64,000 nt of DNA. Source: Pedobacter sp. PF22-3 (lineage in GTDB: Bacteria; Bacteroidota; Bacteroidia; Sphingobacteriales; Sphingobacteriaceae). Under the pieces are notes generated by a model. It was not told where the DNA came from. It made no database searches and saw nothing but the letters and a program-made list of their open reading frames with translations. The stretch is from contig NZ_JAPIVP010000016.1 in assembly GCF_026239555.1 (NCBI RefSeq), positions 62,001-126,000 of the forward strand, given 5' to 3'. The position numbers and the translations under genes were made by a program. The stretch's first letter is position 1, and every line of letters begins with the position of its first letter. This document shows positions 3,322 to 49,726 of the stretch, piece after piece.

Positions 3322-3415
3322 AGTCTGAAGTCCGCAGTCTTTAGTCCATAGTCAAGGCTTTCGACTTTTGACTCCCGACTTCGGACTCCTGACTTAGGAC
3401 TTAGGACTGTGGACT
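3322..3415. repeat. Inverted heptad array (AGTCNNN)5 / (NNNGACT)8
   Basis: AGTC occurs at 3322, 3329, 3336, 3343 and 3350, exactly every 7 nt. After a short spacer, its complement GACT occurs at 3363, 3370, 3377, 3384, 3391, 3398, 3405 and 3412, again exactly every 7 nt. The arms can pair: 3329-3353 against 3391-3415 matches at about 20 of 25 positions. The array ends 2 nt before the stop codon of relA/spoT, so it could act as its terminator. Confidence 0.8.
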
Positions 3416-3417
3416 AT

Positions 3418-5625
3418 CTAAGCATCAAACCTTGTTACTCCGGTTACGCCCCTAACTTTTAATAAATTTTTAATCAGATTTTCTAAGTGTTCGGTATCGT
3501 TTACAAAAATCATAATCGAACCGTCAAAAATCCCCTCATTGGTATCTACGGTAATTGAGCGCATATTTACTTTAAAATCGGTAGAAATAACGCGTGTAAT
3601 GTTGTTGATTAAGCCAACATCATCAATACCCACAATGCGTAAGCCGGTTAAGAAAGTTAACTCCTGTTGTTTGTTCCATTTGGCTTTAACCACGCGATAA
3701 CCATAATTGGCCATTAATTGTGCTGCATTTGGGCAATTGGTACGGTGTATTTTTATGCCTTCGCTCACGGTAATGAATCCAAAAACATCATCGCCAGGTA
3801 TCGGGTTACAACAAGCTGCCAACGTATAATCAATACGCTGCATATCTTCCCCAATGAGTAAAATATCAGATTCTCCGCCCTTAATTTTACTCTTTATTCC
3901 ATCAACAGAAAGATTTTCTGGTCGTTCCGGACTACGGCTTTCAACTTCTTTTCCACTTGATAGATACTCTTTAATATCTTTTAGCTCTATTTTTCCGAGG
4001 GCAACATTTACAAAAAGTTCTTGTGTAGAAGGTAGCTTAAAGAAATAGCTTAGTTTTTGAATGTTTTCGGTATTGTAGGTGATTTTAAGCGATTTCAGTT
4101 TTCGCTCTAAAATTTCTTTGCCATTTTCGGCAATTTTCCGCTTTTCTTCTTTTAAAGAGGACTTAATTTTGGACTTGGCTTTAGCCGTAACGACCACGTT
4201 TAGCCAATCTTCTTTAGGCGTTTGTTTACTCGAGGTAATGATCTCTACCTGATCGCCATTTTGAAGTTTGTAAGAAATAGGAACCAGTTTATGGTTAACC
4301 TTGGCACCAATACAGGTCGCGCCTACATCAGTATGGATCTCGAAAGCAAAATCCAATGCGGTAGCACCTAAAGGTAACTGGATCAAAGCACCTTTTGGCG
4401 TGAAAATAAAAATCTCATCCGAGAAAAGATTCATTTTAAAATCATCAAGAAAATCTAAAGCGTTGGCTTCCGGATTATTCAACATTTCGCGTACTTTTTG
4501 GATCCACTGATCGAGACCATTGTCGTTGCTCGATTCTTTATATTTCCAATGCGCAGCAAAACCTTTTTCTGCAATTTCATTCATGCGCTGCGTACGGATC
4601 TGCACCTCAACCCATTGTCCGCGTGGCCCCATAACCGTGGTATGCAAGCTTTCGTAGCCATTCCCTTTCGGTGATGAAACCCAATCGCGTAAACGATCTG
4701 GATTTGGGCGGTATAAATCGGTTACTATGGAATATGCTTTCCAGCAATCGGCCTTTTCATTTTCAGGAGCCGAATCCAAAATAATCCGGATGGCAAAAAG
4801 ATCATAAACTTCCTCAAAAGGAATGTTTTTCTTTTTCATCTTGTTCCAGATGGAGTGGATAGACTTGGGTCTGCCATAAACATCGGCTACTAACCCTTGC
4901 TCATGTACAATCTCATCAATAGGCTCTACAAATTTTTTGATGAAAAGCGCACGTTCAGCTTTTTTCTCGTTTAATTTTTTTGCAATGAATTTATAGGTGT
5001 CAGGATCAAGATATTTCATTGAAAGATCTTCCAACTCTGATTTTATGGCATATAAACCTAAGCGGTGGGCGAGGGGGGCGTATAGGTAAATGGTTTCTGA
5101 AGCGATTTTAAGCTGCTTATGGCGGGGCATAAAATCCATTGTACGCATATTGTGTAAACGATCGGCGAGTTTGATCAGAATTACGCGGACATCGTCTGCC
5201 AGGGTAAGCAACATCTTACGGAAATTCTCAGCCTGTAATGAGCTATTGGTATCAAAAACACCCGAAATTTTGGTTAATCCATCAATAATTTTAGCAGTTT
5301 TTTTGCCAAATTCGCGTTCTATATCTTCTAAAGTAATATCGGTATCCTCTACCACATCATGCAATAAGGCACAAACAATGGAGGTTGTTCCCAGTCCAAT
5401 TTCTTCGGCCGCAATTTGCGCAACGGCGATAGGATGGTAGATATAGGGTTCACCAGATTTCCGGCGCATATCTTTATGGCTTTCGAGTGCCATATCAAAA
5501 GCTTTCCGGATTTCTTTCTTATCGCCCTTCTGTAAAGTAGATTTGCTTGCCCTTAGTAATGCCCTATATCTTTTTAGAATCTCTTGCTTTTCCGCCTCTA
5601 AATCAATCACTAACTCTGTTTTCAT
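3418..5625 (-). CDS. RelA/SpoT-type (p)ppGpp synthetase/hydrolase
   Basis: A 735-residue long RSH protein that makes and degrades (p)ppGpp in the stringent response. The order is HD hydrolase domain (about 45-200, with HD at 89-90 followed by VVEDT), synthetase domain (about 235-350, with the GRPKSIHSIWNKM segment), TGS domain (about 400-460) and a C-terminal ACT domain (about 660-735). The intact HD motif argues for a bifunctional Rel/SpoT enzyme rather than a hydrolase-dead RelA. It starts at ATG 5625 and is divergent from DUF4294. The heptad array at 3322-3415 abuts its stop. Confidence 0.95.
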   Translation of the reverse strand: MKTELVIDLEAEKQEILKRYRALLRASKSTLQKGDKKEIRKAFDMALESHKDMRRKSGEPYIYHPIAVAQIAAEEIGLGTTSIVCALLHDVVEDTDITLEDIEREFGKKTAKIIDGLTKISGVFDTNSSLQAENFRKMLLTLADDVRVILIKLADRLHNMRTMDFMPRHKQLKIASETIYLYAPLAHRLGLYAIKSELEDLSMKYLDPDTYKFIAKKLNEKKAERALFIKKFVEPIDEIVHEQGLVADVYGRPKSIHSIWNKMKKKNIPFEEVYDLFAIRIILDSAPENEKADCWKAYSIVTDLYRPNPDRLRDWVSSPKGNGYESLHTTVMGPRGQWVEVQIRTQRMNEIAEKGFAAHWKYKESSNDNGLDQWIQKVREMLNNPEANALDFLDDFKMNLFSDEIFIFTPKGALIQLPLGATALDFAFEIHTDVGATCIGAKVNHKLVPISYKLQNGDQVEIITSSKQTPKEDWLNVVVTAKAKSKIKSSLKEEKRKIAENGKEILERKLKSLKITYNTENIQKLSYFFKLPSTQELFVNVALGKIELKDIKEYLSSGKEVESRSPERPENLSVDGIKSKIKGGESDILLIGEDMQRIDYTLAACCNPIPGDDVFGFITVSEGIKIHRTNCPNAAQLMANYGYRVVKAKWNKQQELTFLTGLRIVGIDDVGLINNITRVISTDFKVNMRSITVDTNEGIFDGSIMIFVNDTEHLENLIKNLLKVRGVTGVTRFDA

Positions 5626-5712
5626 TTGTATTTTTTGCGTAAAAAAATGCGTCTTATTTATGAATAAAACTTATATTAGTTCTGTGAAACAACTAATATA
5701 TGAAATAACACC

Positions 5713-5720
5713 TAACTTTG
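5713..5720 (+). promoter_or_regulatory. -7 promoter box of the DUF4294 gene
   Basis: TAACTTTG fits TAnnTTTG and ends 15 nt before the ATG at 5736, so the predicted 5' UTR is about 10 nt. No good -33 element is seen. Confidence 0.55.
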
Positions 5721-5735
5721 TAAAAGTATAAATTT

Positions 5736-6350
5736 ATGAAATTTAAAGGGCTCTTTTTTCTTTGTATTGTAATGATTTATGGTGTTTCACTGCGGGCGCA
5801 GGAACCAACTGCCCCTGTATTCCCTAAATTAGGAAAAAGCGATACCATAAAAGTAGCCTCTACAAACGATAATGGAGTGATGATTCCATGGATGCAACTG
5901 AATGAAGTTAACATTTATGCAGCCAGAATCTGGAAATCACCCGCTGAGCAGGCTGCTTATAACCGTTTGCGGTACAATGTATTAAAGGTAATGCCTTATG
6001 CTTTGTTTGCTAAACGCCGTTATGAACAACTGGAGCAGGATTTAGCTAAAACGGCAGAAAAAAAAGAACAAAAACAATTGGTTAAACAATGTGATAAAGA
6101 AATAAAAGACATGTTTAACCGTGAAATAAAAGAATTGACGATTACTCAAGGCCAGATTTTAACGAAGCTGATCGATCGTGAAGTGGGCAGAACAACCTAT
6201 GATATTGTAAAGCAAACCAAAGGAGGTTTTGCGGCATTTTCTTATCAGATTGTTGCCCGGGTAGTTGGACATAATTTAAAAAGCACTTACGATCCGAATA
6301 CAGATAGAGATATAGAATCTATTATCCGTACTTCAGGATTTTATCAATAA
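5736..6350 (+). CDS. DUF4294 exported protein
   Basis: A 204-residue protein with a signal peptide (about 1-21, ending LRAQ). The remainder is helical and charged, with a segment rich in Glu, Lys and Gln (about 105-130) and conserved-looking motifs such as LNEVNIYA, YNRLRYNVLKVMPYA and LIDREVGRTTYDIVK. I recognise this pattern as the Bacteroidota-restricted DUF4294 family, whose function is unknown. It probably acts in the periplasm or cell envelope. It is 6 nt upstream of the glutathione-peroxidase-like gene, so the two likely form an operon. Confidence 0.8.
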   Translation: MKFKGLFFLCIVMIYGVSLRAQEPTAPVFPKLGKSDTIKVASTNDNGVMIPWMQLNEVNIYAARIWKSPAEQAAYNRLRYNVLKVMPYALFAKRRYEQLEQDLAKTAEKKEQKQLVKQCDKEIKDMFNREIKELTITQGQILTKLIDREVGRTTYDIVKQTKGGFAAFSYQIVARVVGHNLKSTYDPNTDRDIESIIRTSGFYQ

Positions 6351-6356
6351 CATATA

Positions 6357-6869
6357 ATGCAGGATCGCATCCCAAATATTTATTCGTTTAAGGTTAAGAA
6401 AGTTAATGGCGAAGAACAGCCGTTATCAGTCTATCAAAACAAAGTTGTTTTAATCGTAAATACAGCGTCAGAATGTGGCTTAACACCACAGTTGAAGGAA
6501 TTGCAGCAACTTAAAGACGAGATTAATAGTCCTGATTTTGAAATCCTGGGCTTTCCTTCTAATGATTTTGGAAAGCAGGAACCTTTGGAAGGATCTGATA
6601 TTGCATCTTTCTGTGAGATTAACCATGGCGTAAAATTTCCGGTTTTTGATAAAATTATTGTTCGCGGGGAAAATGCTCACCCACTGTATCAGTTCCTGAG
6701 CGATAAAAAACAAAACGCAAAATTAAGTTCGAAACCACGATGGAACTTTCATAAATACATCGTGAACAAAAATGGCGAGCTGGAAGATTATTTTTTCCCG
6801 TTCACTAAGCCATTAAATTCGAAAATCAAAAAGAAAATTCAGCAATTGCTGAGTCAAAATGCCCAATAA
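6357..6869 (+). CDS. Glutathione-peroxidase-family thiol peroxidase
   Basis: At 170 residues this is a cytosolic thioredoxin-fold peroxidase of the GPx family, reducing hydroperoxides, probably with thioredoxin or bacillithiol rather than glutathione. The peroxidatic residue is Cys40 in TASECGLTPQ (Cys, not selenocysteine). The WNFHKY segment near residue 124 carries the conserved Trp and Asn. The usual FPCNQFG motif reads FPSNDFG here, so the catalytic Gln is replaced by Asp and the resolving-Cys position by Ser. It lies in a likely operon with the upstream DUF4294 gene; bshB1 follows about 108 nt downstream. Confidence 0.9.
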   Translation: MQDRIPNIYSFKVKKVNGEEQPLSVYQNKVVLIVNTASECGLTPQLKELQQLKDEINSPDFEILGFPSNDFGKQEPLEGSDIASFCEINHGVKFPVFDKIIVRGENAHPLYQFLSDKKQNAKLSSKPRWNFHKYIVNKNGELEDYFFPFTKPLNSKIKKKIQQLLSQNAQ

Positions 6870-6977
6870 TTAAATCAATGAAACCGACATTATTAAAATA
6901 TCATTAAGCCAGATGGATAATGATTATTTTAATGATCAAAGGTTCCATCTGACAATTAAAAAACACAAAAAACACAG

Positions 6978-7694
6978 ATGAACTTAGATATTTTAGTAAT
7001 AGCTGTACATCCTGATGATGCAGAGCTTTGCTGTTCAGGTACCATTTTAAAACATATTGCACTCGGTAAAAAAGTAGGTATTGTAGACTTAACCAGAGGT
7101 GAACTCGGTACAAGGGGTACAGCTGAAACAAGAGACGAAGAAGCGGCAGATTCAGCTAAAATTTTAGGCTTGCATATCCGCGAAAATCTAAGGTTGAGGG
7201 ATGGCTTTTTTCAGAACGATGAATTTCACCGTTTAGAAGTGATTAAAGCCATCAGAAAATACCAACCAGAAATTATTTTAAGCAACGCGCTTGAAGACCG
7301 TCACCCTGACCATGGAAGGGCTGGCGACTTGGTTTACGATTCCGTTTTTCTATCGGGTTTACCAAAAATAGAAACATCAGTTGATGGGATTCTGCAAGAT
7401 GCACATCGTCCAAGATTGTTATTGCAATTCATTCAAGATAGGTATTTGAAACCTGATATTATCGTAGATATCTCTGATCATATGGATAAAAAGATCGAAT
7501 CGATCCAGGCTTTTAAAACACAGTTTTATAATCCAGATGTAGAAGGTCAACAAACCTATATATCCTCGCCAGAGTTTTTTGAAAGCGTAATTGGCCGTTC
7601 GAGAGAATTTGGTAAAAGCATTGGTGCCACTTTTGGCGAAGGCTTTACTTCGCGGAAATTATTAGGTGTTGATAATTTGTTTGATTTGCGTTAA
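6978..7694 (+). CDS. bshB1: Bacillithiol biosynthesis deacetylase BshB1
   Basis: A 238-residue LmbE/PIG-L zinc deacetylase. The zinc motif VHPDDAE (H11, D13, D14) and the second metal motif HPDHGRA are present, and the TRGELGTRGT segment is typical of BshB1. The enzyme removes acetyl from GlcNAc-malate, the second step of bacillithiol synthesis. Having it near a thiol peroxidase is consistent with a low-molecular-weight thiol system; bshA and bshC are not in this window. The terminator at 7716-7754 follows. Confidence 0.93.
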   Translation: MNLDILVIAVHPDDAELCCSGTILKHIALGKKVGIVDLTRGELGTRGTAETRDEEAADSAKILGLHIRENLRLRDGFFQNDEFHRLEVIKAIRKYQPEIILSNALEDRHPDHGRAGDLVYDSVFLSGLPKIETSVDGILQDAHRPRLLLQFIQDRYLKPDIIVDISDHMDKKIESIQAFKTQFYNPDVEGQQTYISSPEFFESVIGRSREFGKSIGATFGEGFTSRKLLGVDNLFDLR

Positions 7695-7715
7695 AATCAG
7701 TTATTTAACCTAATT

Positions 7716-7754
7716 AAAAGTGCATGCCTGGTATTTAAGACATGCACTTTTTTT
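7716..7754. terminator. Bidirectional intrinsic terminator after bshB1
   Basis: AAAAGTGCATG (7716-7726) and CATGCACTTTT (7741-7751) form a perfect 11-bp stem with T and A tracts on both sides. It lies between bshB1 (plus) and the small charged-protein gene (minus), so it can serve both. Confidence 0.85.
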
Positions 7755-7764
7755 AATAGCCCAA

Positions 7765-7893
7765 TTATTTAGACTCTAAATTTCCCTTAATCTCACCAGC
7801 TTTAAATGCTGCTTTTGTTTTAAGATCGTCTACCTTATCGGCAGCTTTGTCAGCCAAATTGCTCGCTTTGTCTTTCAGGTTTTCTCCTGTTGT
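7765..7893 (-). other. In-frame coding continuation beyond the TAA of the small charged protein
   Basis: Directly after the TAA that ends the 80-residue frame at 7894, the same frame stays open for 42 codons to a second TAA at 7765-7767. It encodes the same kind of sequence, with NLKDKASNLADKAADKVDD and then TKAAFKAGEIKGN, which echoes MKTKGAFAAGEAKG upstream of the stop. This suggests a single ancestral CDS of about 123 residues split by one nonsense codon, or a recoded stop, or a sequence error. Confidence 0.65.
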
Positions 7894-8136
7894 TTAAGCC
7901 TGGCCTTTAGCTTCTCCGGCAGCAAATGCTCCCTTTGTTTTCATTTCATCGTATTTGTCTTCAGCTTTATCTTTCAGGTCTTCAGCTTTATCCTTTACAT
8001 CTTCCCATACATCCTCTGCTTTATCTTTTGCGTCTTCCCAGGCGTCTTCAGCTTTGTCTTTTAGATCGCTTAATTTGCTCTTTGCTTTATCAAAGAAACT
8101 TTGTTCTTCTTCTGGTAATTGATTTTCTGTGCTCAT
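7894..8136 (-). CDS. Small charged amphipathic-repeat protein (possibly truncated)
   Basis: An 80-residue cytoplasmic-type protein made of 11-residue-like helical repeats of the form DKAEDxWEDxK. The sequence is very rich in Lys, Asp, Glu and Ala, has no Cys and no hydrophobic segment. It resembles stress-associated YtxH/CsbD/LEA-like hydrophilic proteins, but I cannot assign a family. The frame carries on with homologous composition after the stop (7765-7893), so this may be the N-terminal two-thirds of a longer gene. Confidence 0.7.
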   Translation of the reverse strand: MSTENQLPEEEQSFFDKAKSKLSDLKDKAEDAWEDAKDKAEDVWEDVKDKAEDLKDKAEDKYDEMKTKGAFAAGEAKGQA

Positions 8137-8293
8137 ATAAATTGAATTTAATTAGAACCATACAACAGTACTTTAATAATAATGTTTTGCATTACACTTT
8201 CCAGTTGTGAAGTGCTAAATAGTTAGTTTGGAGCGATCTAAATGATGAGCCAACAAAACTGACCTTCATTTGTTATTCTCAAAACGAATAATA

Positions 8294-9655
8294 ATGGCGA
8301 ATATATTTTCTTCTCTCAAAAACGCTTACAATCTTTTTAAACATGTAGATTTCGACAAATTGGAAGCTTTATCGAAAAAGGTTGATTTACCCAAAATGGT
8401 TGAAACGATATCAAGCCTTGATGATAAACAGATTCAGGGGATGATGAAAATGATGGGTGGATCTGGCAAAAAGAAAGAATTACCACCTATTGAGGGCGAT
8501 TTTTACCATTTGGGCGATGAAGCGTTAAAGGATGAAGACCGTGCGCTTCAGTTAAAAGTACGGGCTTTTTTAGAGCAGGAAGTAAAACCCATAGTTAACC
8601 AATATTGGAATAAAGCAGAATTCCCTTTTGAAATTATTCCAAAACTTGCCGAACTTAACATTTGTGGCTTAACGTACAAAGGTTATGGCTGTCCGGGGAA
8701 ATCGAATTTAATGGAAGGCATTTTAGCCATGGAAATGGCCAGGATTGATACTTCTATATCTACTTTTTTTGGTGTACAGAGCGGTTTGGCCATGGGTTCG
8801 ATCTATCTATGCGGTTCGGAGGAACAAAAACAACAATGGCTGCCGCTAATGCAGCAATTTAAAATTATCGGGGCATTTGGGTTAACTGAGCCTGAAGTAG
8901 GGTCTGCTGCTGCCGGCGGATTAACCACAACTTGCAAAAAAGTAAATGGTAAATGGATATTAAATGGTCAGAAAAAATGGATTGGTAATGCCACTTTTGC
9001 CGATATCTTAATTATTTGGGCACGAGATGAAGAAAGTGGGGAAGTAAAAGGTTTTATCGTTAAGAAAGATAATCCGGGTTTTGCTGTTGAGAAAATGCAG
9101 AATAAAATGGCCTTACGGATTGTACAGAATGGAATTATTACCTTAACCGATTGCGAGGTAGAGGAATCAGATCGATTGCAGAATGCCAACTCATTTAAAG
9201 ATACGGCGAAGGTTTTACAGATGACACGTGCAGGAGTGGCCTGGCAGGCGGTAGGTTGTGCCCGTGGCGCTTATGAAAATGCCTTGGAATATACGCGTAC
9301 CCGAAAACAGTTTGGTAAACCCATTGCATCTTTTCAATTAATTCAAAATCATCTTGTAGAGATGTTGTCGAATTTAACGGCGATGCAAACACTTTGTTTC
9401 CGTCTTTCACAATTACAAGATCAGGGATTATTAAAGGATGAACACGCTTCATTAGCCAAGGTTTTCTGTTCATTAAGAACGCGTGATGTAGTAAGCAAAG
9501 CAAGAGAAGTGATGGGCGGAAATGGTATTTTACTCGAATACAATGTAGCACGTTTTGTGGCCGATGCAGAAGCAATTTATTCGTATGAGGGCACCAAAGA
9601 AATTAATACCCTGATTGTGGGTAGGGCAATAACGGGCTTTTCAGCTTTTGTTTAG
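8294..9655 (+). CDS. Acyl-CoA dehydrogenase family protein
   Basis: A 453-residue flavin-dependent acyl-CoA dehydrogenase. FAD-binding segments include FGLTEPEVGSAAAG (about 195-208) and the W(I)GNATFADI region. The C-terminal helical domain ends with YEGTKEINTLIVGRAITG, whose Glu is the catalytic base position in the glutaryl/isovaleryl-CoA dehydrogenase group. An N-terminal helical extension of about 60 residues (to KKKELPPIEG) precedes the core. I take ATG 8294 (MANIFSSLKN) over an upstream TTG at 8270. The substrate is not predictable, though a glutaryl-CoA-dehydrogenase-like role is plausible. It stands alone. Confidence 0.92.
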   Translation: MANIFSSLKNAYNLFKHVDFDKLEALSKKVDLPKMVETISSLDDKQIQGMMKMMGGSGKKKELPPIEGDFYHLGDEALKDEDRALQLKVRAFLEQEVKPIVNQYWNKAEFPFEIIPKLAELNICGLTYKGYGCPGKSNLMEGILAMEMARIDTSISTFFGVQSGLAMGSIYLCGSEEQKQQWLPLMQQFKIIGAFGLTEPEVGSAAAGGLTTTCKKVNGKWILNGQKKWIGNATFADILIIWARDEESGEVKGFIVKKDNPGFAVEKMQNKMALRIVQNGIITLTDCEVEESDRLQNANSFKDTAKVLQMTRAGVAWQAVGCARGAYENALEYTRTRKQFGKPIASFQLIQNHLVEMLSNLTAMQTLCFRLSQLQDQGLLKDEHASLAKVFCSLRTRDVVSKAREVMGGNGILLEYNVARFVADAEAIYSYEGTKEINTLIVGRAITGFSAFV

Positions 9656-9812
9656 ATGATGGGAACTTAATGAAGTTTGAAAGGTAAGAGCAATTTAGGA
9701 ACTTCATTAGTTTTAGCCGGGGTAATTAGTTGCTTGTCAGTCTGAGCGTAGTCGAAGACCGCTGTGCATACTGATGAATTTTTAGGTTTTGGAAATGAAT
9801 GTCAGAATTTCA

Positions 9813-10164
9813 TAGGTACTGTAGTCCTGTCATTCGCTGCAACTATCCTGTTCGTATAGTTAAGCGTAGCGTCTCTACGAATTGGCTAATGGTATTGAGT
9901 TTTCAAACTCAATGATAAACTTACGAGTCGGAGACTCTTTTCCATGAGTTAATCCGTAGAGCCTTTCAGAACTCTACGGACAGAGAAATTCTTAGGTACT
10001 GTAGTCCTGCCATTCGCTGCAACTATCCTGTTCGTATAGTTAAGCGTAGCGTCTCTACGAATTGGCTAATGGTATTGAGTTTTCAAACTCAATGATAAAC
10101 TTACGAGTCGGAGACTCTTTTCCATGAGTTAATCCATAGAGCCTTTCAGAACTCTACGGACAGA
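9813..10164. repeat. Tandem duplication of a 180-bp non-coding unit
   Basis: The block 9813-9992 is repeated at 9993-10164 with an exact 180-nt offset and only two mismatches (9830 T/C, 9956 G/A). Each unit carries the hairpins GAGTTTTCAAACTC and GAGTCGGAGACTC and a right end AACTCTACGGACAGA, and so is a relative of the 132-bp elements at 54526 and 59809 with a decayed left end. No ORF is supported. The gap 9656-10461 otherwise holds only repeat remnants. Confidence 0.85.
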
Positions 10165-10313
10165 CTATGTATGAGGTATCTTTTTTATCGGTTACAGATG
10201 ATTCGTACCTCAGCATGACAGCATATTAAAGGCTGAGGCAAGCAAAAAGTATTTTCATTACTGTCAGGTTTACGTAACAAGGGCCTGTTTTCAAGGCACA
10301 AAACTTGGTTTAT

Positions 10314-10370
10314 AAACCCGATTGGAACGGATGCCAATTTCCTTCAAATTGGCAGGAGGGAAAGCGGGAC
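10314..10370. repeat. AAACCCGAT...GCGGGAC repeat, copy 1
   Basis: Related to 19248-19308 and 48915-48973: a conserved AAACCCGAT start, a GATGCCAATTTCCTTCAAAT hairpin paired with ATTTGAA/TTGGCA, and an AGCGGGAC end. It is non-coding. Confidence 0.6.
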
Positions 10371-10461
10371 AGAAAATGCCAAATGCGCAGAACCTTTCAT
10401 TTCCAATAAATAACGCTTAATTTTTTTTAGCTAACTAACTTTCCGAATTTTTAACTTCTGT

Positions 10462-10863
10462 TTAAAACGGATGTTTATTAAATGCCACCTGGCTCATCGC
10501 ACTTTTTTCATATAAAGCAATACAATCTTTGTTGAAAACAGGATCGAAATTTACATCACCGGGCTGTAAGCTTGTTGGAACATTTGCATTTTGCATGAAA
10601 AAATACACTTTGGTATTACCGTATTTGGTATGGGGCATCAAGTTACCATAATCTTCCATTTCTTTCCAGATCGAATCTTTAATCGTCACTATGTAAATCC
10701 GTTGTATTGGACCTGTGTTATTGGCATTTCTATACTTGATCACTTCTTTAAAGCCAGCCTTCATATCACTAATTCCTGGCTGATCAAAAATATCTTTAAC
10801 TATAAAAAAGATCAATACTAAAACACCTGCAACCAGGAAATAAACCGACGATTTTCTGTTCAT
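10462..10863 (-). CDS. Hypothetical single-pass membrane protein
   Basis: A 133-residue protein with one N-terminal membrane segment (about 7-22, VYFLVAGVLVLIFFIV) and an extracytoplasmic remainder. I do not recognise a family. It begins 2 nt after the stop of the lysine aminotransferase gene on the same strand, so the two are almost certainly co-transcribed. No catalytic motif is visible. Confidence 0.75.
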   Translation of the reverse strand: MNRKSSVYFLVAGVLVLIFFIVKDIFDQPGISDMKAGFKEVIKYRNANNTGPIQRIYIVTIKDSIWKEMEDYGNLMPHTKYGNTKVYFFMQNANVPTSLQPGDVNFDPVFNKDCIALYEKSAMSQVAFNKHPF

Positions 10864-10865
10864 GC

Positions 10866-19672: not shown

Positions 19673-19733
19673 GACTTCAGATTCTGTAATTTCGAAATCC
19701 AGACTTAGGACTAAAGACTCCAGACTAAGAACT
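19673..19733. repeat. Heptad array NNNGACT next to the fmt stop
   Basis: GACT occurs at 19702, 19709, 19716 and 19723, with AACT at 19730: five units with an exact 7-nt period. GACT at 19673 and GATT at 19680 form a preceding pair. The array ends 3 nt before the fmt stop codon (19737-19739). Confidence 0.75.
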
Positions 19734-32516: not shown

Positions 32517-32549
32517 TACTTCGGACTTTCGGACATCAGACCTCTGATT
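32517..32549. repeat. Heptad array near the mnmD stop
   Basis: TACT (32517), GACT (32524), GACA (32532), GACC (32539) and GATT (32546) are spaced 7, 8, 7 and 7 nt apart. The array ends 4 nt from the stop codon of mnmD. Confidence 0.55.
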
Positions 32550-32552: not shown

Positions 32553-33227
32553 TTAACCTTCCATCTTAACTGCACGCAACATTTCTCTTTTTCCCGGGGC
32601 GCCTGGTAATTTTTCGATAGTAAATCCACAGGCTTTAAGAGCCCTTTTTAGTTTGCCAGTAATGGCGTAGGTAACAAAAGTACCACGGGGTTTTAAGAAA
32701 CTGCAGGCGTGTGCAATAATTTCATCACTCCACATTTCGGGTTGGTGCTGTACAGAAAATGCATCGTAATAAATCAGGTCAAATTGGTTATCGCTGCGGT
32801 ATTCGGCCAATGTAGTATGCGGAATTTCTAAGGTGCAATGTGGAGTTAATTTTTGTGGTGCTTTTAATGCTTCCTGATAATTTGAAAAAAACTCAGTCCA
32901 TATTTCTTCAGGAACATATGCCGCATAACCTGTTTGCTTTATTATATCTGTAGTAAGCGGAAAGGCCTCAATGCTAGTATAGCTAAGGTTAAGGTTGTTT
33001 GCCGCACAATATTCGAAACTTAAAATAAAGTTCAGTCCAGTACCAAAACCGACTTCCAAAATGGAAATTTCAGCTTGGTTCGCGGATGCGAATTTCAAAC
33101 CGGCATCAATAAATACATGTTTGCTTTCCTGCAGCGCACCATGTTTGCTATGGTAATGTTCGCCTATGGTTTCGTTATAAAGCGTATTGGAACCATCTGC
33201 AGTAGGCGTAATTATATTCATGAGCAT
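32553..33227 (-). CDS. mnmD: MnmD-type tRNA 5-aminomethyl-2-thiouridine methyltransferase
   Basis: A 224-residue methyltransferase corresponding to the N-terminal half of MnmC (DUF752). It completes mnm5s2U34 in tRNA using SAM. It starts with NETIGEHYHSKHGALQESKHVFID and has the SAM-binding loop LEVGFGTGLNF and the IYYDAFSVQHQPEMWSDEI motif. The FAD domain of MnmC is absent, as usual in Bacteroidota. ATG 33221 is an alternative start. A heptad array abuts the 3' end. Confidence 0.9.
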   Translation of the reverse strand: MLMNIITPTADGSNTLYNETIGEHYHSKHGALQESKHVFIDAGLKFASANQAEISILEVGFGTGLNFILSFEYCAANNLNLSYTSIEAFPLTTDIIKQTGYAAYVPEEIWTEFFSNYQEALKAPQKLTPHCTLEIPHTTLAEYRSDNQFDLIYYDAFSVQHQPEMWSDEIIAHACSFLKPRGTFVTYAITGKLKRALKACGFTIEKLPGAPGKREMLRAVKMEG

Positions 33228-33403: not shown

Positions 33404-33470
33404 GACTTCTGAGTCCTGACCTCTGATTTTTTTCTCTTTCAGCTTTAATCTTTTGTGTTTAGCTTTGGTC
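33404..33470. repeat. Degenerate heptad arrays before the CCCTAAA array
   Basis: GACT/GAGT/GACC/GATT occur at 33404, 33411, 33418 and 33425, exactly every 7 nt. CTTT/CTTT/CTTT/GTTT follow at 33436, 33443, 33450 and 33457, also every 7 nt. The homogeneous CCCTAAA array starts 4 nt after this block. The gap 33228-33556 holds nothing else. Confidence 0.65.
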
Positions 33471-33473
33471 TGA

Positions 33474-33557
33474 CCCTAAACCCTAAACCCTAAACCCTAA
33501 ACCCTAAACCCTAAACCCTAAACCCTAAACCCTAAACCCTAAACCCTAAACCTTAAA
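33474..33557 (+). repeat. (CCCTAAA)11 plus one degenerate unit, fused to a start codon
   Basis: Eleven perfect CCCTAAA units run from 33474 to 33550, followed by CCTTAAA (33551-33557), whose last A is the first base of the ATG of the YjbR-family gene. The motif equals the plant-type telomere repeat. A 7-nt unit within the leader means that unit gain or loss would shift promoter/leader spacing, not reading frame. Confidence 0.95.
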
Positions 33558-35590: not shown

Positions 35591-35625
35591 CCTTACACCC
35601 TCCATCTTTCAGCCTTCAACCTCAA
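35591..35625. repeat. Heptad array at the M13 peptidase stop
   Basis: CA dinucleotides end units at 35597, 35604, 35611 and 35618, exactly 7 nt apart, in CCTTACA/CCCTCCA/TCTTTCA/GCCTTCA. The array ends 3-10 nt before the stop codon of the peptidase gene. Confidence 0.6.
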
Positions 35626-40953: not shown

Positions 40954-41032
40954 TCAGGTTTTTCTACTAAGTGAGGTCAATACTGCAAAATTCACTGCTT
41001 TAGGGTGCTTCGCTCCTCCAAAAACAATCGCC

Positions 41033-41287
41033 TTATAAATGATTTTTTCTGAATTCTTCAAGTGCATCTTTTAAAGTCTTTCCAATATTTTCTTTAAACC
41101 AGGCCATAAAGATTCTGTTGTTCTTCCAGCATTCGCCGAAATGCGATTGAAAATAACGCCGCACATTTGAGGTGTTTTTAAAATTTAAGGTAATCACTGT
41201 TTCATCGCTCAATGGTTCAGAATGCCAATTAAATTTGCTCATCCCCAAATATGAAAAATAACTTTTTACTTTCATAATGCTGAACAT
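41033..41287 (-). CDS. DUF6434-like small protein
   Basis: An 84-residue protein (or 69 if started at ATG 41242, MSKFNWHSE). FNWHSEPLSDETVITLNFKNTSNVRRYF, then FMAWFKENIGKTLKDALEEFRK, fits the DUF6434 pattern, often found with SAP domains. The function is unknown. The shorter start looks more like family N-termini. It is divergent from valS. Confidence 0.7.
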   Translation of the reverse strand: MFSIMKVKSYFSYLGMSKFNWHSEPLSDETVITLNFKNTSNVRRYFQSHFGECWKNNRIFMAWFKENIGKTLKDALEEFRKNHL

Positions 41288-41292
41288 CCTGC

Positions 41293-41333
41293 CTTTCGCC
41301 TCTATCTTTCTGCTTTGGTCTTTCAGCTTTGAC
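41293..41333. repeat. Heptad array between DUF6434 and valS
   Basis: CTTT/CTCT/CTTT/CTTT/CTTT/CTTT occur at 41293, 41300, 41306, 41313, 41320 and 41327, a 7-nt step with one 6. It lies directly upstream of the valS promoter box. Confidence 0.55.
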
Positions 41334-41343
41334 CTGAATTAGC

Positions 41344-41351
41344 TATTTTTG
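41344..41351 (+). promoter_or_regulatory. -7 promoter box of valS
   Basis: TATTTTTG fits TAnnTTTG, 19 nt before ATG 41371. TTTG sequences upstream are at unusual distances, so the -33 element is not clear. Confidence 0.55.
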
Positions 41352-41370
41352 GGCTTTTATAACAATTTTC

Positions 41371-44037: not shown

Positions 44038-44057
44038 TAATAACTTGATATTGCGAT

Positions 44058-44123
44058 CGTCATGCTGAATTTATTTCAGCATCCTTCTTGCTATTAAGAC
44101 CCTGAAATAAATTCAGGGTGACG
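44058..44123. repeat. 66-bp palindromic element, copy 1
   Basis: CGTCATGCTGAATTTATTTC and GAAATAAATTCAGGGTGACG pair over nearly their whole length (two mismatches) around a 22-nt loop. An almost identical copy is at 47180-47245, and both are preceded by GCGAT. A diverged copy is at 1338-1422. The 310-bp gap 44038-44347 holds this, a terminator and a heptad array. Confidence 0.8.
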
Positions 44124-44133
44124 AGACTAATAT

Positions 44134-44170
44134 AAGCCCTTTAGATTTTTTCTAAAGGGCTTTCTTTTTT
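44134..44170 (+). terminator. Intrinsic terminator of valS
   Basis: AAGCCCTTTAGA and TCTAAAGGGCTT form a perfect 12-bp stem with a T5 loop, followed by TCTTTTTT. Confidence 0.9.
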
Positions 44171-44180
44171 TACCCCTTCT

Positions 44181-44223
44181 CCATTTCACCTCATCCATTC
44201 TCCATCTTACATCCTCCGTTTCC
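44181..44223. repeat. Heptad array after the valS terminator
   Basis: CCATTTC/ACCTCAT/CCATTCT/CCATCTT/ACATCCT/CCGTTTC: six consecutive 7-nt units (starts 44181, 44188, 44195, 44202, 44209 and 44216). Confidence 0.7.
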
Positions 44224-44347
44224 TTTCTAAATTGTTACCAAAGCTCATCCATTTATTAAACTAAAAGTCCTAATTTGGATGCTGTTAAACATCTTATAAA
44301 TCGTTTAACGCATAAGCTATCTAACCTTATTTAAACCGTTTTATTCT

Positions 44348-45703
44348 ATGGAAAATTCCAGAAGAAAATTTATTAAACAATCAGCAGTATTTGCTGCAGC
44401 AACCTATGCAGGTACCATGGGCATGAGCCCCAAAAGTTATGGACGCATCATCGGTGCAAATGATCGGGTACGTGTTGGTGTTGTTGGATTTTCTGATCGC
44501 TTTAAAGACACCCTTTTGCCTTGTTTCCTGAACCACAACAAGGAACTCAATTTCGATATCGTCGGTCTTTCTGATTTATGGAACTACCGCAGAGATTTAG
44601 GGATTGCCCATTTAAAAGAAAAATTTGGTCACGATATTAAAGTCTGCCGCAACAATGATGAGCTTTATGCCACAAAAGATCTTGATGCTGTAATTATCAG
44701 TACCGCCGATTTTCAGCACGCACTTCATACCATCGAGGCTGTAAAGGCCAATTGCGACGCTTATGTAGAAAAGCCTTTTGCCGAAACCATGGACGATGCC
44801 AAAGCTGCATTTAAAGCTGTTAAGGCCAGCAAGCAGATTGTGCAAATAGGTTCACAAAGAAGAAGTGGAGAAAATTATATCAATGCTGCAAAATTTATAC
44901 AGGATGGAAAATTCGGGCCGATCACTGCTGTAGATTTAGTGTGGAATGTAAATCAGCCAGGCAGGTGGCGCCGACCAGATTTAGTAGCTAAATTGAAAGA
45001 AGAAGATATTGATTGGAAAAGGTTTTTGTTAAATCGTCCGAACGAGGCTTTTGATCCGAGAAAATATTTAGAATATAGATTATTCTGGCCCTATTCTTCG
45101 GGGATGCCCGGGCAATGGATGAGCCACCAGATTGATACCGTGCATTGGTTTACCAATTTAAAACATCCACGGAGTGTGGTGGCAAATGGAGGTATTTATA
45201 CCTGGAAAGATGGCCGTAGAAATTGGGATTCGATGGTTGCCGTATTCGATTATGGTCAGCCAGATAATAACGATGGCTTCCAGGTTACTTTTACTTCCAG
45301 AATGCAGAATAGTGTGGGTGATGTAGGTGAGGTTTATTACTCGAATGGTGGCGAGCTGAATTTAATGACCAATAAGGTGTCGCCAAAAGGCGGTTTAAGG
45401 GAAAAAGAGGCTGCAGCTATGGGATTGAAAGCCAACCTTTTGCCTGAATTTGATTTAAGTAAAACCGAAATTAAAGCGGCCACAGGAGCTAATATGGGCG
45501 GTGATGCATTAACCTCTGGCCACATGCGCAACTGGATGGAATGTGTACGCAGCCGTAAAACACCAAATGCACCTGTAGAAGCAGGTTATTCGCATTCTAT
45601 TGCCAATATCATGACCAATGCTGCGGTTCGCACGGGTGCAAAAGCAGTTTTCGATGAAAGCAGACAAGAAGTAATCGCAAACGGAAAAGTATTTAAGTAT
45701 TAA
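44348..45703 (+). CDS. Exported Gfo/Idh/MocA-family oxidoreductase
   Basis: A 451-residue sugar oxidoreductase with a twin-arginine-type signal (SRRKFIKQSAVFAAATYA). The Rossmann domain follows (RVRVGVVGFSDRF), then VYVEKPFAET, which carries the EKP motif, and the C-terminal beta-sheet domain. It likely oxidises or reduces a glycoside hydroxyl in the periplasm using a bound NAD(P). Together with the double-DUF1080 protein and the second oxidoreductase (47367-48560), it suggests C3-oxidation-based glycoside breakdown. Confidence 0.92.
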   Translation: MENSRRKFIKQSAVFAAATYAGTMGMSPKSYGRIIGANDRVRVGVVGFSDRFKDTLLPCFLNHNKELNFDIVGLSDLWNYRRDLGIAHLKEKFGHDIKVCRNNDELYATKDLDAVIISTADFQHALHTIEAVKANCDAYVEKPFAETMDDAKAAFKAVKASKQIVQIGSQRRSGENYINAAKFIQDGKFGPITAVDLVWNVNQPGRWRRPDLVAKLKEEDIDWKRFLLNRPNEAFDPRKYLEYRLFWPYSSGMPGQWMSHQIDTVHWFTNLKHPRSVVANGGIYTWKDGRRNWDSMVAVFDYGQPDNNDGFQVTFTSRMQNSVGDVGEVYYSNGGELNLMTNKVSPKGGLREKEAAAMGLKANLLPEFDLSKTEIKAATGANMGGDALTSGHMRNWMECVRSRKTPNAPVEAGYSHSIANIMTNAAVRTGAKAVFDESRQEVIANGKVFKY

Positions 45704-45714
45704 AATAAAAATAT

Positions 45715-45737
45715 CGTCATTCTTCCTCGCAATGACG
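45715..45737. repeat. Short CGTCA/TGACG hairpin remnant
   Basis: CGTCATTCTTCCTCGCAATG followed by ACG: ends complementary, with the CTCGCAATGACG right end of the 48584-48683 family. It sits between the first oxidoreductase gene and the DUF1080 gene. Confidence 0.6.
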
Positions 45738-45753
45738 GCAAGACAAACCTATC

Positions 45754-47118
45754 ATGTTAAAAATCAAAAAATATAGTATTCTGGCGCTCTCGTTAATCAG
45801 TTTATCAGCCGCTGCCCAAAAGGCTAAACCATTATTTGATGGTAAAACGCTTACTGGTTGGAAAGCCGTTGCAGGTGCTGCACCGTATAAGGTTGAAGAC
45901 GGAATGATTGTGGGCACCATGACCAAAGGCACACCAAATTCATTTTTGATTACCGAAAAAGAATATGGCGATTTCATTTTAGAACTGGATGTGAAACTGG
46001 AAGGCGAAACCACCAATTCTGGTATCCAGACCCGTAGCCACATTAAACCAGAAGGGAATGGCGGTAAAGGATTGGTTTTTGGCAGGCAGGTAGAAATAGA
46101 TCCTACCCCGAGAGCATGGACAGGTGGCATTTATGACGAAGCCAGAAGATTGTGGTTGTATCCTCTAGAACTTAATCCAGCGGCAAAACCTTTGTACAAA
46201 AAGAATGAGTTTAACCATTACAAAATCGAATGTATTGGTAACGAAACCAAAACCTGGGTAAATGGAACACCTGTTGCTTATCTAGTTGATACTTTAGATA
46301 AATCAGGATTTATCGGTTTGCAGGTTCATGGTATTGGCAATAACCTCGATAATGATGGTAAAAAAGTTTATTTTAAAAATATCAACATCCAAACTGAAGG
46401 GCTAAAGGCCAAAGTTTTTCCAAAAGGCATTTATACGGTTAATTTAACCCCAAATACTTTATCTGCTTACGAAAAATCAGAAGGCTATAAACTATTGTTC
46501 GATGGTAAAAGCAGTGCAGGTTGGGTTGGTGCTTATAAAACTACTTTCCCTGCCAAAGGTTGGAAAATAGCTGATGGCATTATCAGCGTTGAACCTTCAG
46601 GTGGTGCAGAATCAACTAATGGAGGCGATATTGTAACCAAGGATGAATATGCTGCTTTTGATTTATCTTTCGAATTTAAGCTTACACCCGGCGCCAATAG
46701 CGGAGTGAAATATTTTGTTACCCTGAGTGAAAATAACAAAGGGTCGGCCATTGGCCTGGAATACCAGGTTTTAGATGATGAATTGCACCCTGACGCAAAA
46801 TTGGGTAGAGATGGAAACCGTACTTTGGCGTCTTTATACGATTTAATTACTTCGAAAAAGGAAGCCCGTTACCTGCGCCCAATCGGCAGTTGGAACAATG
46901 GACGTGTGGTAGTGTATCCAAATAACAAAGTAGAACATTATTTAAATGGTGTAAAAGTTCTGGAATATACCCGTGACTCTGAAGAATTTAAAAAACTCGT
47001 TGCTATTAGTAAATATAAAGATTGGAAAAACTTTGGCGAAGCACCAAAAGGACATATCCTGCTGCAGGATCATGGCAATAAAGTAGATTTTAGAACTATT
47101 AAAATCAAGAATTTATAA
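45754..47118 (+). CDS. Exported protein with two 3-keto-disaccharide hydrolase (DUF1080) domains
   Basis: A 454-residue protein with a signal peptide (about 1-20, ending SAAAQ). Two DUF1080 concanavalin-like domains occupy about 22-212 (LFDGKTLTGWKAV...) and 248-454 (LLFDGKSSAGWVGA...). In both, the LFDGK start and the ending pattern (KVYFKNINI; KVDFRTIKI) are seen. DUF1080 proteins cleave or hydrate 3-keto-glycosides. The two domains may be catalytic plus binding, or act on different substrates. It is between two Gfo/Idh genes on the same strand. Confidence 0.92.
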   Translation: MLKIKKYSILALSLISLSAAAQKAKPLFDGKTLTGWKAVAGAAPYKVEDGMIVGTMTKGTPNSFLITEKEYGDFILELDVKLEGETTNSGIQTRSHIKPEGNGGKGLVFGRQVEIDPTPRAWTGGIYDEARRLWLYPLELNPAAKPLYKKNEFNHYKIECIGNETKTWVNGTPVAYLVDTLDKSGFIGLQVHGIGNNLDNDGKKVYFKNINIQTEGLKAKVFPKGIYTVNLTPNTLSAYEKSEGYKLLFDGKSSAGWVGAYKTTFPAKGWKIADGIISVEPSGGAESTNGGDIVTKDEYAAFDLSFEFKLTPGANSGVKYFVTLSENNKGSAIGLEYQVLDDELHPDAKLGRDGNRTLASLYDLITSKKEARYLRPIGSWNNGRVVVYPNNKVEHYLNGVKVLEYTRDSEEFKKLVAISKYKDWKNFGEAPKGHILLQDHGNKVDFRTIKIKNL

Positions 47119-47179
47119 CCTGAGTTCGATTAATATTTATGCGTTTTGATTAGTTTTAGTCTACTTTTCTTAACGCGAT

Positions 47180-47245
47180 CGTCATGCTGAATTTATTTCA
47201 GCATCTTTCTTGCTATATAGACCCTGAAATAAATTCAGGGTGACG
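47180..47245. repeat. 66-bp palindromic element, copy 2
   Basis: It is the same as 44058-44123 apart from a few bases in the loop, again preceded by GCGAT. It lies between the DUF1080 gene and the second oxidoreductase gene, where it could attenuate read-through. Confidence 0.8.
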
Positions 47246-47366
47246 ACTGTGAGCTAAAAATATCCGAGAAAACTTTTAAGCCAATATTAATAATCCAATT
47301 TTGGTTTTCTGTATTAATTTGTGGTTAAATATATTTACGAATAAAGAAATAAAACATTAACATATC

Positions 47367-48560
47367 ATGCACCGTCGATCTTTTGTTAAAACATCAGCTT
47401 TAGTAGGCTCTGGTTTGCTATTGGGCAATCAGGCTCTCGCCAATTTAGTAGCAGACGAAATTATTAATGTGGCCATGATTGGTTGCGGCGATCGCGGTAA
47501 AGGGGTTTTGTCGGTAATTAAATCCATGCCGACCAAATATAACGTTAAAGCCTATTGCGATCTGCTCGATTTCAGGCTTAAGGAAACTGAAAAGTATGTT
47601 CCAGCAGAGGCCAAAGCCATAAAAGATTATCGAAAAGTTTTAGAGGATAAAACAATCGATGCGGTTTTTATTGCTACACCTTTAAGCGAGCATTTCGACA
47701 TTGCAAAAGATGCTGTGCTGGCCGGTAAACATGTTTATGTAGAAAAAACCATGACTTACAACATTACCCAGGCACTTGAGCTTAAGAAGTTGGTTAAGCA
47801 ACACCCTAAGCAGGTTTTTCAGGTGGGATACCAGTACCGTTATTCGCCCTTGTATTTTAAGGTGAAAGAGATGATCCAGAGTGGTTATTTGGGTAAGGTT
47901 AGCCAAATCGATTGTCGTTGGGACCGTAACGGTAACTGGCGCAGGGCTGTTCCAGATCCATCTTTGGAGCGCAAAATCAACTGGAGGATGTACAAGGAAT
48001 ATTCTGGCGGATTGGCTGCCGAACTGCTCTCACACCAGATCGATTTTATCAACTGGGCTTTCGAAACCCAACCTGATGAAATTATGGGCGCTGGAGGGAT
48101 AGATGTTTTTAAGGATGGCCGCGAAACTTATGATAACATTCAAGCGGTATTGCGTTATCAGGAAAAAGGTATGATTGGCAACTTCGGGGCCACCTGCGGC
48201 AATGCACATGATGGTTATCTGTTTAAAATAAAAGGTACAAAGGGCTCGGTTTCCCTGCTGACCAATACTGGCTTATTTTATCCTGAAGAAAGCACCAAAA
48301 AAGAATTGGGTATTGTTGATGGGGTAACCGGAGCGACAAAAATCGTGGTGAATAAAGACGGCGGAATCCCTATTTTGGACAAAGCCACCATTGATGGTAC
48401 AAACTATGCGTTGGATGAATTTTACAAATCAATAACCACCAGGAAAGAACCCGCATCAAATATCAATACCGGAACCCAGGCCGCTATTTGCGTGGCCATG
48501 TGTAATGAGGCGATTTATAGCGGTAATAAACAGGTTTGGAAGCCGGAATATAGTGTTTAA
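47367..48560 (+). CDS. Exported Gfo/Idh/MocA-family oxidoreductase (second)
   Basis: A 397-residue protein with a Tat-type signal (HRRSFVKTSALVGSGLLLG) and the family core: NVAMIGCGDRGKG, then HVYVEKTMTYN (EKT in place of the usual EKP) and a Gfo C-terminal domain with QVGYQYRYSPLYFKVKEMI. It probably acts on a sugar or cyclitol in the periplasm, as partner to the proteins encoded at 44348-47118. Confidence 0.92.
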   Translation: MHRRSFVKTSALVGSGLLLGNQALANLVADEIINVAMIGCGDRGKGVLSVIKSMPTKYNVKAYCDLLDFRLKETEKYVPAEAKAIKDYRKVLEDKTIDAVFIATPLSEHFDIAKDAVLAGKHVYVEKTMTYNITQALELKKLVKQHPKQVFQVGYQYRYSPLYFKVKEMIQSGYLGKVSQIDCRWDRNGNWRRAVPDPSLERKINWRMYKEYSGGLAAELLSHQIDFINWAFETQPDEIMGAGGIDVFKDGRETYDNIQAVLRYQEKGMIGNFGATCGNAHDGYLFKIKGTKGSVSLLTNTGLFYPEESTKKELGIVDGVTGATKIVVNKDGGIPILDKATIDGTNYALDEFYKSITTRKEPASNINTGTQAAICVAMCNEAIYSGNKQVWKPEYSV

Positions 48561-48583
48561 GTGATCTGTTATCTGCACAAAAT

Positions 48584-48683
48584 CGTCATGGCGAGAAGGC
48601 TTTTTCAGCCGACGAAGCAATCTAAAAGATAGATTAATAGAGATCATTGTAAGATTGCTTCGTCGTTCCTCCTCGCAATGACG
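48584..48683. repeat. 100-bp CGTCA/TGACG palindromic element
   Basis: CGTCATGGCGAG...CTCGCAATGACG ends, with an internal inverted pair GACGAAGCAATCT/AGATTGCTTCGTC. It is 24 nt after the oxidoreductase stop and may terminate it. A partial copy is at 51017-51100. Confidence 0.75.
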
Positions 48684-48712
48684 GAAAAACAAAGAATCTT
48701 TAATGCTCTTAA

Positions 48713-49013
48713 TTTTTTTTGGAAAGCAATTGTTGTGGTTGGTTTTAAAGTTAGTCCTGCTTTTCATTACAAGTCCTCGCTGCGCTGTGGGCTTTACATT
48801 TCAATCAGGTTTAAAATTTAAAGGCTTTTGCTGCTATTGAAGGATATAGCATCATTCAGAAAGACACTATTCCTGCGTATTGCAACCCCTAATAGTCTTG
48901 CTGGCTGTGCCACCTAAACCCGATCGAAGCGGGATGCCGATTTTTTCAATCGGCAGAAGCGGGAGCGGGACTGAATAGACCTAAGGACCACTGTTTCTGC
49001 TTTCCAAAAAAAA
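48713..49013. mobile_element. 301-bp MITE-like element with perfect 16-bp terminal inverted repeats
   Basis: TTTTTTTTGGAAAGCA (48713-48728) and TGCTTTCCAAAAAAAA (48998-49013) are perfect reverse complements. The interior is non-coding and contains AAACCCGATCGAAGCGGG at about 48915. Half-copies occur at 19248-19338 (right half) and 19420-19590 (left half). No transposase is present. I could not define a target duplication. The rest of the gap 48561-49107 holds the 100-bp element and repeat debris. Confidence 0.55.
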
Positions 49014-49107
49014 GATTTAAATCATATTGCTACTGCTGTAAGATTTTCTCGCGCTTTGGAATAACGGTAAAGGAAGATCCTTCGTGCCTCAGGATGACAG
49101 ATACTGC

Positions 49108-49566
49108 TTAAAGCCCCAAATATTCAGGCATTTCTTCTACAAAATTAAAGCTGCCTTTCTCCAGGTCCATTTTGGCATAAACATGCTGCAAACCGTTGGT
49201 TAACACAATCCATTTCGCCTGATGTATCGAATTATAACGCGAGGCCTGATCAAAAACAGATTGTGTAATTTTCACCTTTGGTGCCTTGCATTCAATCAAC
49301 ATCAGCTTTTCACCAGCGGTATTGTAAATCAAAATATCGCTTCGTTTTTGTAATTGGTTTAAAACCAAACCACCTTCAATCTGGATTAACGTACGTGGAA
49401 ATTTCTTCTCTAAAATCAGGTTTTGTATAAAATGCTGTCGCACCCACTCTTCGGGTGTAAGTACCAGGTGTTTCTTCCTCAGCTCATCAAAAATAAATAC
49501 CACGTCATCCTTTTTGGTAATTTTAAATGGGTAGGGCGGAAGGTTAAGCGGAGTAGGAGTGAACAT
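49108..49566 (-). CDS. Protein with type I restriction HsdR N-terminal-like nuclease fold
   Basis: A 152-residue protein matching the HSDR_N_2 pattern: LTPEEWVRQHFIQNLILEKKFP, then RSDILIY and LIECKAP. Asp77, Glu92 and Lys94 form the D-ExK active site of PD-(D/E)XK nucleases. There is no helicase part. Stand-alone genes of this kind are usual next to holA in Bacteroidota; the function is not known. It is divergent from holA, with two heptad arrays in between. Confidence 0.88.
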   Translation of the reverse strand: MFTPTPLNLPPYPFKITKKDDVVFIFDELRKKHLVLTPEEWVRQHFIQNLILEKKFPRTLIQIEGGLVLNQLQKRSDILIYNTAGEKLMLIECKAPKVKITQSVFDQASRYNSIHQAKWIVLTNGLQHVYAKMDLEKGSFNFVEEMPEYLGL

Positions 49567-49568
49567 TT

Positions 49569-49600
49569 CAGTTTTCAGTTGGTAGTTTTCAGTTGTATGT
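49569..49600. repeat. Heptad array (CAGTTTT type) at the start of the HsdR_N gene
   Basis: CAGT/CAGT/TAGT/CAGT/ATGT at 49569, 49576, 49583, 49590 and 49597: exactly 7 nt apart. It begins 3 nt upstream of the start codon (minus strand). Confidence 0.7.
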
Positions 49601-49686
49601 CACTTAACAATGCAACAGTAAAACAATTTATCAGTTATTGCAGCTTCAAAGGTAGTTAATTTTGGGCTATGCGATGAAGCCTGCAG

Positions 49687-49726
49687 TCTAATGTCTCAAA
49701 TCTCATATCTAACATCTCATATCTCT
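49687..49726. repeat. Heptad array (TCTCATA type) upstream of holA
   Basis: TCT occurs at 49687, 49694, 49701, 49708, 49715 and 49722: six units with an exact 7-nt period. Confidence 0.75.

Follow-up and report, generated by a model that had tools for sequence, protein, structure and literature searches.

Why should the intergenic DNA of a soil bacterium carry tandem arrays whose units differ from place to place but whose step is seven nucleotides? The question is raised by a 64,000-nucleotide stretch of Pedobacter sp. PF22-3 (hereafter the window; C8:62001-126000 of the 5.63 Mb genome G000), in which a preliminary description listed some ten such arrays beside genes. Heptamer repeats are a decades-old unexplained excess, usually ascribed to polymerase slippage. 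Here, most units are found to consist of a fixed core and free letters, AGTC plus three being the commonest, and it is the core that is conserved between species. It may be that the arrays are selected sets of repeated short recognition sites, mostly in 3' untranslated regions (UTRs), that are read by a putative oligomeric RNA- or DNA-binding factor; we put the chances of this reading at about even.

Period and placement of the arrays

Intergenic arrays in the window, defined by three units and four identical columns, number 12 at period 7, as against a mean of 0.58 (maximum 3) in 200 dinucleotide shuffles, and 0, 0, 1, 0 and 0 at periods 5, 6, 8, 9 and 10. The genome was sampled more widely as stretches amounting to 0.8 Mb, half of it picked irrespective of arrays. 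In that 400-kb set, a stricter definition (four units and four identical columns) gives 9 arrays at period 7 where 0.1 are expected, and again 0, 0, 1, 0 and 0 at the other five periods. In the window as in the 400 kb, period-7 arrays stand ~10-20 fold above dinucleotide shuffles, with no comparable excess at periods 5, 6, 8 or 10. Lag-7 runs in the 400 kb reach 1.54x the shuffle (z 9.6), and the signal recurs at lags 14, 21, 28 and 42; among neighbouring lags, 5, 6 and 8 lie at 0.90-1.12x and 9-12 at 1.17-1.33x. A comparison of lag 7 with shuffles and with other lags had been set beforehand as the test of the periodicity, which passed it in this set. The further claim, that unrelated units share a common period, stands in so far as several different units do share it, but AGTC/GACT forms a single class with more than 100 overlapping four-unit matches genome-wide (103 for (GACTNNN)4; its reversed control has 0).

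The excess is absent from coding DNA and belongs to gene edges. When distances to stop codons were mapped, as the preliminary description had proposed, it proved strongest from the stop onward (27.5 per thousand vs ~7-11 at other lags) and gone by ~100 nt. The adjacent gene is in sense for 24 of 35 AGTC arrays, mostly at -8 to +12 nt from its stop, and some of these arrays start on the stop codon itself (TAGTC); TAG is used more often at array stops, in 10/22 cases against 65/312. Sense heptads in a stop-side catalogue of 60 arrays are mostly AGNNNNN, with AGTC, AGTT, AGCG, AGAT, AGAC and AGGC as examples. At two stops, each followed in up to 30 species, the array sits between the stop and a conserved hairpin with a T-run. 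Because the order there is stop, array and conserved intrinsic terminator, the array lies within the 3' UTR at those two stops and is therefore presumably transcribed. The arrays themselves do not form an intrinsic terminator; where one is present, it is separate and downstream.

The arrays are also polar. With the G-richer strand taken as forward, they run 5' to 3' away from the nearest open reading frame (ORF) edge, which lies 5' of the array in 22 of 25 cases in the unbiased set plus the window (22:3), in 36 of 42 when one clade's relA loci are taken, and in 40 of 50 from other genomes. This holds at starts as well as at stops. Both strands bear arrays in 31 intergenic regions, and there the opposed pairs face each other in 37/37 cases, orthologous regions among these not being independent. 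The lag-7 excess is itself strand-asymmetric (AG 306 vs CT 24; GT 311 vs AC 25). Background base composition was rejected as the source of polarity at stops, where G/C counts are 28/10 with an array and 16/15, that is, without skew, in its absence. Within one opposed AGTC pair, at L207:11961-12034, two convergent genes terminate: both frames end AGT CCN GAG TCT stop, so that the final residues (SPES) and the stop codon come from the array.

Conservation of cores at orthologous stops

The two parts of the unit diverge very differently between species, each represented by one genome. At one orthologous stop (L130:9916), compared in 11 species, the pairwise difference is 0.026 for the core and 0.450 for the triplets; fourfold-degenerate sites differ by 0.432, and codon positions 1+2 of the same gene by 3.4%. 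The core there diverges like amino-acid-changing sites, and the triplets like fourfold sites. The values at the relA stop are 0.163 for the core and 0.382 for the triplets, the G of AG being best retained (3%), and two further orthologous stops give 0.116 vs 0.299 and 0.210 vs 0.404; the codon 1+2 value for L121 was set aside as unreliable, its reading frame being misaligned. By this comparison of sequences, the core at its 7-nt pitch is under selection, since it differs far less than the triplets do and since the same stop elsewhere carries heptads with other cores.

These values do not support the mere addition or copying of heptamers, the process that had been suggested, as the main cause. 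Such a process would copy all seven letters, whereas here it is the core that is retained, and the triplets evolve as neutral DNA would. Between adjacent AGTC units, the triplets match only a little better than between different arrays (1.08/3 vs 0.91/3, a few homogeneous arrays included). The free letters of AGTC arrays are biased in composition, and C is avoided at the two positions preceding AGTC.

The change of core at a fixed site is clearest at the relA stop, which carries AGTC arrays in one Pedobacter clade, heptads of GGTT, GATGG, TTAT, TTAATG or CAGTT in other species, and no array in most of a second clade. By a strict test, 14 of 36 species have an array there; other conserved stops near relA (23-37 orthologues each) have none. 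In more distant species, the L130 stop is followed by AGAGTAA, AGGGTAG or TGAGTGA heptads, and a third stop (L119) by AAAGNNN heptads, which have an inverted CTTT partner, or by AAGG heptads. AGTC arrays occur in 35 of the 61 Pedobacter genomes sampled and in other Bacteroidota families too, while others use different cores, such as GCTGANN. GCTGANN/TCAGCNN arrays are abundant in the GC-rich Bacteroidota genome G254 (L197, L211-L220), the reversed control pattern having 505 matches in one genome.

Units are gained and lost between species in 7-nt steps, which bears out that part of the earlier interpretation. The (CCCTAAA) array has 11 copies in the window, ~6 in G004, 5 in G009 and ~1 in G001, and the CAGTT array has 4 units in the window vs ~12 in P. 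terrae; these differences among relatives are why slippage is taken to add and remove units. Two observations concern other repeat lengths. An 8-nt step (AGTCNNNN) occurs at the same stops in some species (L342, L347 and the relA loci L031-L066), and lag 8 is elevated in pooled relatives. In P. chinensis (L051, from 12206), the entire relA 3' element, ~63 bp including the array, is itself in tandem repeat.

Possible readers and rival explanations

That a 4-nt core is selected at a fixed pitch while the spacers are free is the reason for regarding the arrays as recognition sites. In the mechanism proposed here, 3-12 sites, each with a core of 4-5 nt (AGTC commonest in the genus, nearly always around AG), would be set at a 7-nt pitch at ORF edges, above all past stops. 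Purifying selection would keep core and spacing, leaving the letters between as free spacer, and slippage in 7-nt steps would create, remove and multiply units, also yielding young homogeneous arrays. A putative oligomeric RNA-binding (or DNA-binding) factor might read several sites together, as TRAP does on RNA NAG repeats and omega on DNA heptads, and could act on transcript 3' ends or shield the intergenic region from transcription that runs out of the gene. An RNA reader is favoured by the sense bias and the 3' UTR position, but a DNA reader is still viable because the same polarity is seen at start edges. A bolder proposal, which must be called tentative and is somewhat doubtful, is that Bacteroidota carry a polar gene-edge 'ruler' code of a short core at an exact 7-nt pitch, with a putative oligomeric reader whose core preference switches by lineage, reader and sites co-evolving while the genes that carry the sites remain the same; at the same stop, the core would then be of the AGTC type here and of the AGAGTAA, AGGGTAG, TGAGTGA or AAAG type in other species.

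Several observations weigh against recognition sites read mostly in 3' UTRs. The core divergence covers only species that retain an AGTC array, and some relatives have lost the array without trace. Hairpin-plus-T-run terminators are not enriched behind arrays genome-wide (6/23 AGTC arrays vs ~30% elsewhere). In divergent regions, the arrays near starts run antisense to the gene, which a role confined to the 3' UTR leaves unexplained, and the several cores within one genome would require a lax reader or multiple readers. TRAP (PF02081) is absent from the genome, although it was detected in the B. subtilis control, and the genome has a single RRM gene, which is not diagnostic.

Some specific candidates were rejected. 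TRAP would not suit as reader, given the missing gene and a pitch of 7 rather than NAG with 2-3 nt spacers, nor would the RRM protein RbpB, whose preference in the literature is for AU-rich sequence and not for heptads. Rho rut sites (YC every 7 nt) would accommodate AGTC, which contains TC, but not the other classes, in which YC is missing. A role as fail-safe stop codons in rotating frames was set aside because many frequent units (CGAAGTC, GGAAGTC) contain no stop.

The most familiar alternative is that these are neutral heptanucleotide microsatellites, made by polymerase slippage in 7-nt steps, decaying by mutation and gathered beside ORFs since coding DNA is intolerant of them. Heptamers are the commonest class of long simple sequence repeats in many bacteria, and slippage via a 7-nt polymerase contact has been proposed (Mrazek 2007, as cited in PMC4679880 and PMC4692102); homogeneous arrays and copy-number shifts in 7-nt units agree with this. 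However, near-identical units are found in CCCTAAA and a few AGTC arrays, while in most arrays the triplets vary, and decay should affect all seven columns equally, yet the core is kept where the triplets are saturated. As neutrality predicts neither strand polarity nor the persistence of a site with a changed core, this explanation seems unlikely, if still to be taken seriously. A DNA-binding protein with a 7-bp pitch, comparable to the RHH protein omega on WATCACW heptads, could instead form polar barriers or insulators at intergenic edges. It would explain why polarity tracks ORF edges, starts as well as stops, and not the direction of transcription, and a reader of contiguous heptads is known that needs at least 4 of them for full activity (PMC9499535), near the usual unit number here. 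The arrays are nevertheless strongest at stops, sense-biased and, where a terminator is seen, inside the transcribed 3' UTR, with several cores per genome, and we consider a purely DNA-level role of this kind quite unlikely.

It could also be pairing that is conserved, the arrays being arms of RNA or DNA hairpins such as terminators, 3'-end protection or template-switch palindromes. Many regions have opposed arms that share a core, the relA-fur elements of most species fold better than their dinucleotide shuffles, and there is one 20-bp stem with 3 compensated pairs. Outside the core, though, complementarity between the arms of 19 AGTC pairs does not exceed that between arms of different loci, by identity and by duplex energy, and the triplets of these pairs do not covary, so that pairing is not a generally kept feature. 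Hairpin copying between arms was rejected for AGTC pairs by the same two measures, though the relA fold test alone had hinted at pairing. Many arrays are unpartnered, a second relA group has nearly no consensus structure, and the 7-nt pitch would be unexplained; a hairpin role is thus improbable. More far-fetched is a telomere-like healing, in which heptads would be added to the 3' ends of an intergenic break before the two ends were joined. It is brought to mind by the head-to-head arrays, whose G-rich strand runs toward the join (37/37), and by the TTTAGGG arrays, but the core is long conserved at fixed sites, flanking promoter and terminator sequence is retained, genomes have several cores and many arrays are single, and it has very little to recommend it. 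At L117:11101-11160 (G000:C1 near 666100) lies a hairpin element that has no relation to the heptads: a ~57-bp imperfect palindrome (TCATCCTGAACTTGTTCCAGAATCT...) that is dispersed through many Pedobacter genomes, with dozens of matching sites on the two strands.

The divergence of core versus spacer indicates that the period, within one large group of bacteria, is a spacing maintained by selection. An old curiosity thereby becomes a directly testable hunt for a reader at gene ends, for which a 7-nt pitch compared with a 6- or 8-nt pitch offers a clean assay.

Arrays of the window and known heptamer repeats

All the sites listed in the preliminary description read as stated, and period 7 alone stands out against shuffles. 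The arrays at 3322-3415, 19702-19730, 33473-33557, 49569-49597 and 49687-49722 are strong and that at 44181-44216 is good, whereas those at 32517, 33404, 35597 and 41293 are degenerate and individually weaker. Their link to ORF ends also holds, with two gene positions corrected: it is the CCCTAAA array that YjbR (33557) lies behind, and the HSDR_N gene occupies 49108-49566. Since each gene was taken as the longest ORF, start coordinates are only rough.

The relA region has (AGTCNNN)8 in relA sense (3363..3415, minus strand), beginning 2 nt past the relA stop (3418). It is faced by (AGTCNNN)5 on the opposite strand (3322..3353, plus), 76 nt from the fur start (3245). RelA domains and a FUR domain were found, and the encoded RelA matches its P. 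terrae counterpart at 100% identity. Past the fmt stop (19737) lies (AGTCNNN)4 (19702..19730, minus), which is missing from the same stop in G004, G001 and G009. Degenerate GACT-type heptads occur 5 nt past the Methyltransf_30 (mnmD) stop at 32553 (32517..32548, minus) and again at 33404..33425 (minus), followed by the homogeneous (CCCTAAA)11, or (TTTAGGG)11 (33473..33557, minus), which adjoins the YjbR start. AGGNNNN-type heptads (35597..35618, minus) lie past the peptidase M13 stop (35628), and their orthologues retain the AGG step while the other letters differ. AAAGNNN-type heptads between the DUF6434 and valS starts (41293..41331, minus) contradict the polarity rule, the nearer edge being on their 3' side. 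ATGGNNN (CCAT) heptads are located 144 nt past the valS stop (44181..44216, minus). Finally, (CAGTTNN)4 (49569..49597, plus) runs away from the HSDR_N gene start (49566) and is faced by (GAGATNN)5 (49687..49722, minus), 57 nt from the DNA_pol3_delta start (49780) and of a class retained in P. terrae. Rfam and tRNA scans of the window gave no matches. In a long convergent intergenic region, a 180-bp unit is present twice with 97% identity (9804-10164).

Among known systems, the targets of TRAP are NAG repeats with 2-3 nt spacers, located in leaders. The arrays resemble them in being regularly spaced short AG-containing sites with free spacers and C disfavoured before AG. To our knowledge, neither core/spacer structure nor ORF-edge polarity has been described for the Calothrix or general heptanucleotide long simple sequence repeats. 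A 7-nt period is favoured in those repeats, as here, but they are defined by identical tandem units (Mazel 1990, as cited in PMC4692102; Mrazek 2007, as cited in PMC4679880 and PMC4692102). The parS/operator sites of omega (ParB of pSM19035), 7-10 WATCACW heptads (PMC9499535), are likewise contiguous 7-bp units with a fixed core and a lax edge; reading by an oligomeric protein is omega's feature. They are plasmid promoter and centromere sites with another core, not at gene 3' ends, and the array units do not match WATCACW.

The preliminary description knew of no described mechanism, but slippage has been proposed for the heptanucleotide excess (Mrazek 2007, via citing papers), and stop-proximal, strand-oriented heptamer arrays are known. 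The GGGNATC and GGGGA(C/T)T arrays of Xanthomonas and Nostoc are intergenic, form 70-75 opposed pairs and differ in length in related species, with the G-rich strand on the coding strand beside a stop or on the non-coding strand beside a start (Rehm et al. 2015, PMC4692102). The Pedobacter arrays share the 7-nt tandem unit enriched in intergenic DNA, the G-strand placement and the opposed pairs. However, AGTCNNN, AGTTNNN and GAGATNN lack fixed G-tracts of 3-4, only TTTAGGG having GGG, and where the units of Rehm et al. are near-homogeneous and quadruplex-forming, those of Pedobacter are a 4-nt core plus a free triplet, a single genome having several cores and the core switching from one species to another. 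Direct repeats of TAACTGA form intergenic heptamer arrays near start codons in Bacteroidota and others (MacGregor 2015, PMC4679880), and the CAGTT class at 49569 is related to them, although its unit, CAGTTNN (reverse complement NNAACTG) beside a start, is variable and not an exact TAACTGA tandem. The unit of the TAACTGA repeats is fixed, they lie mostly in forward orientation ahead of starts, and neither a degenerate core nor a stop-side class was described. Stop-proximal, strand-oriented and paired heptamer arrays are thus already described (GGGNATC, Rehm 2015; TAACTGA, MacGregor 2015), whereas the degenerate 4+3 design and its signature of selection, along with the switching of cores, appear to be new.

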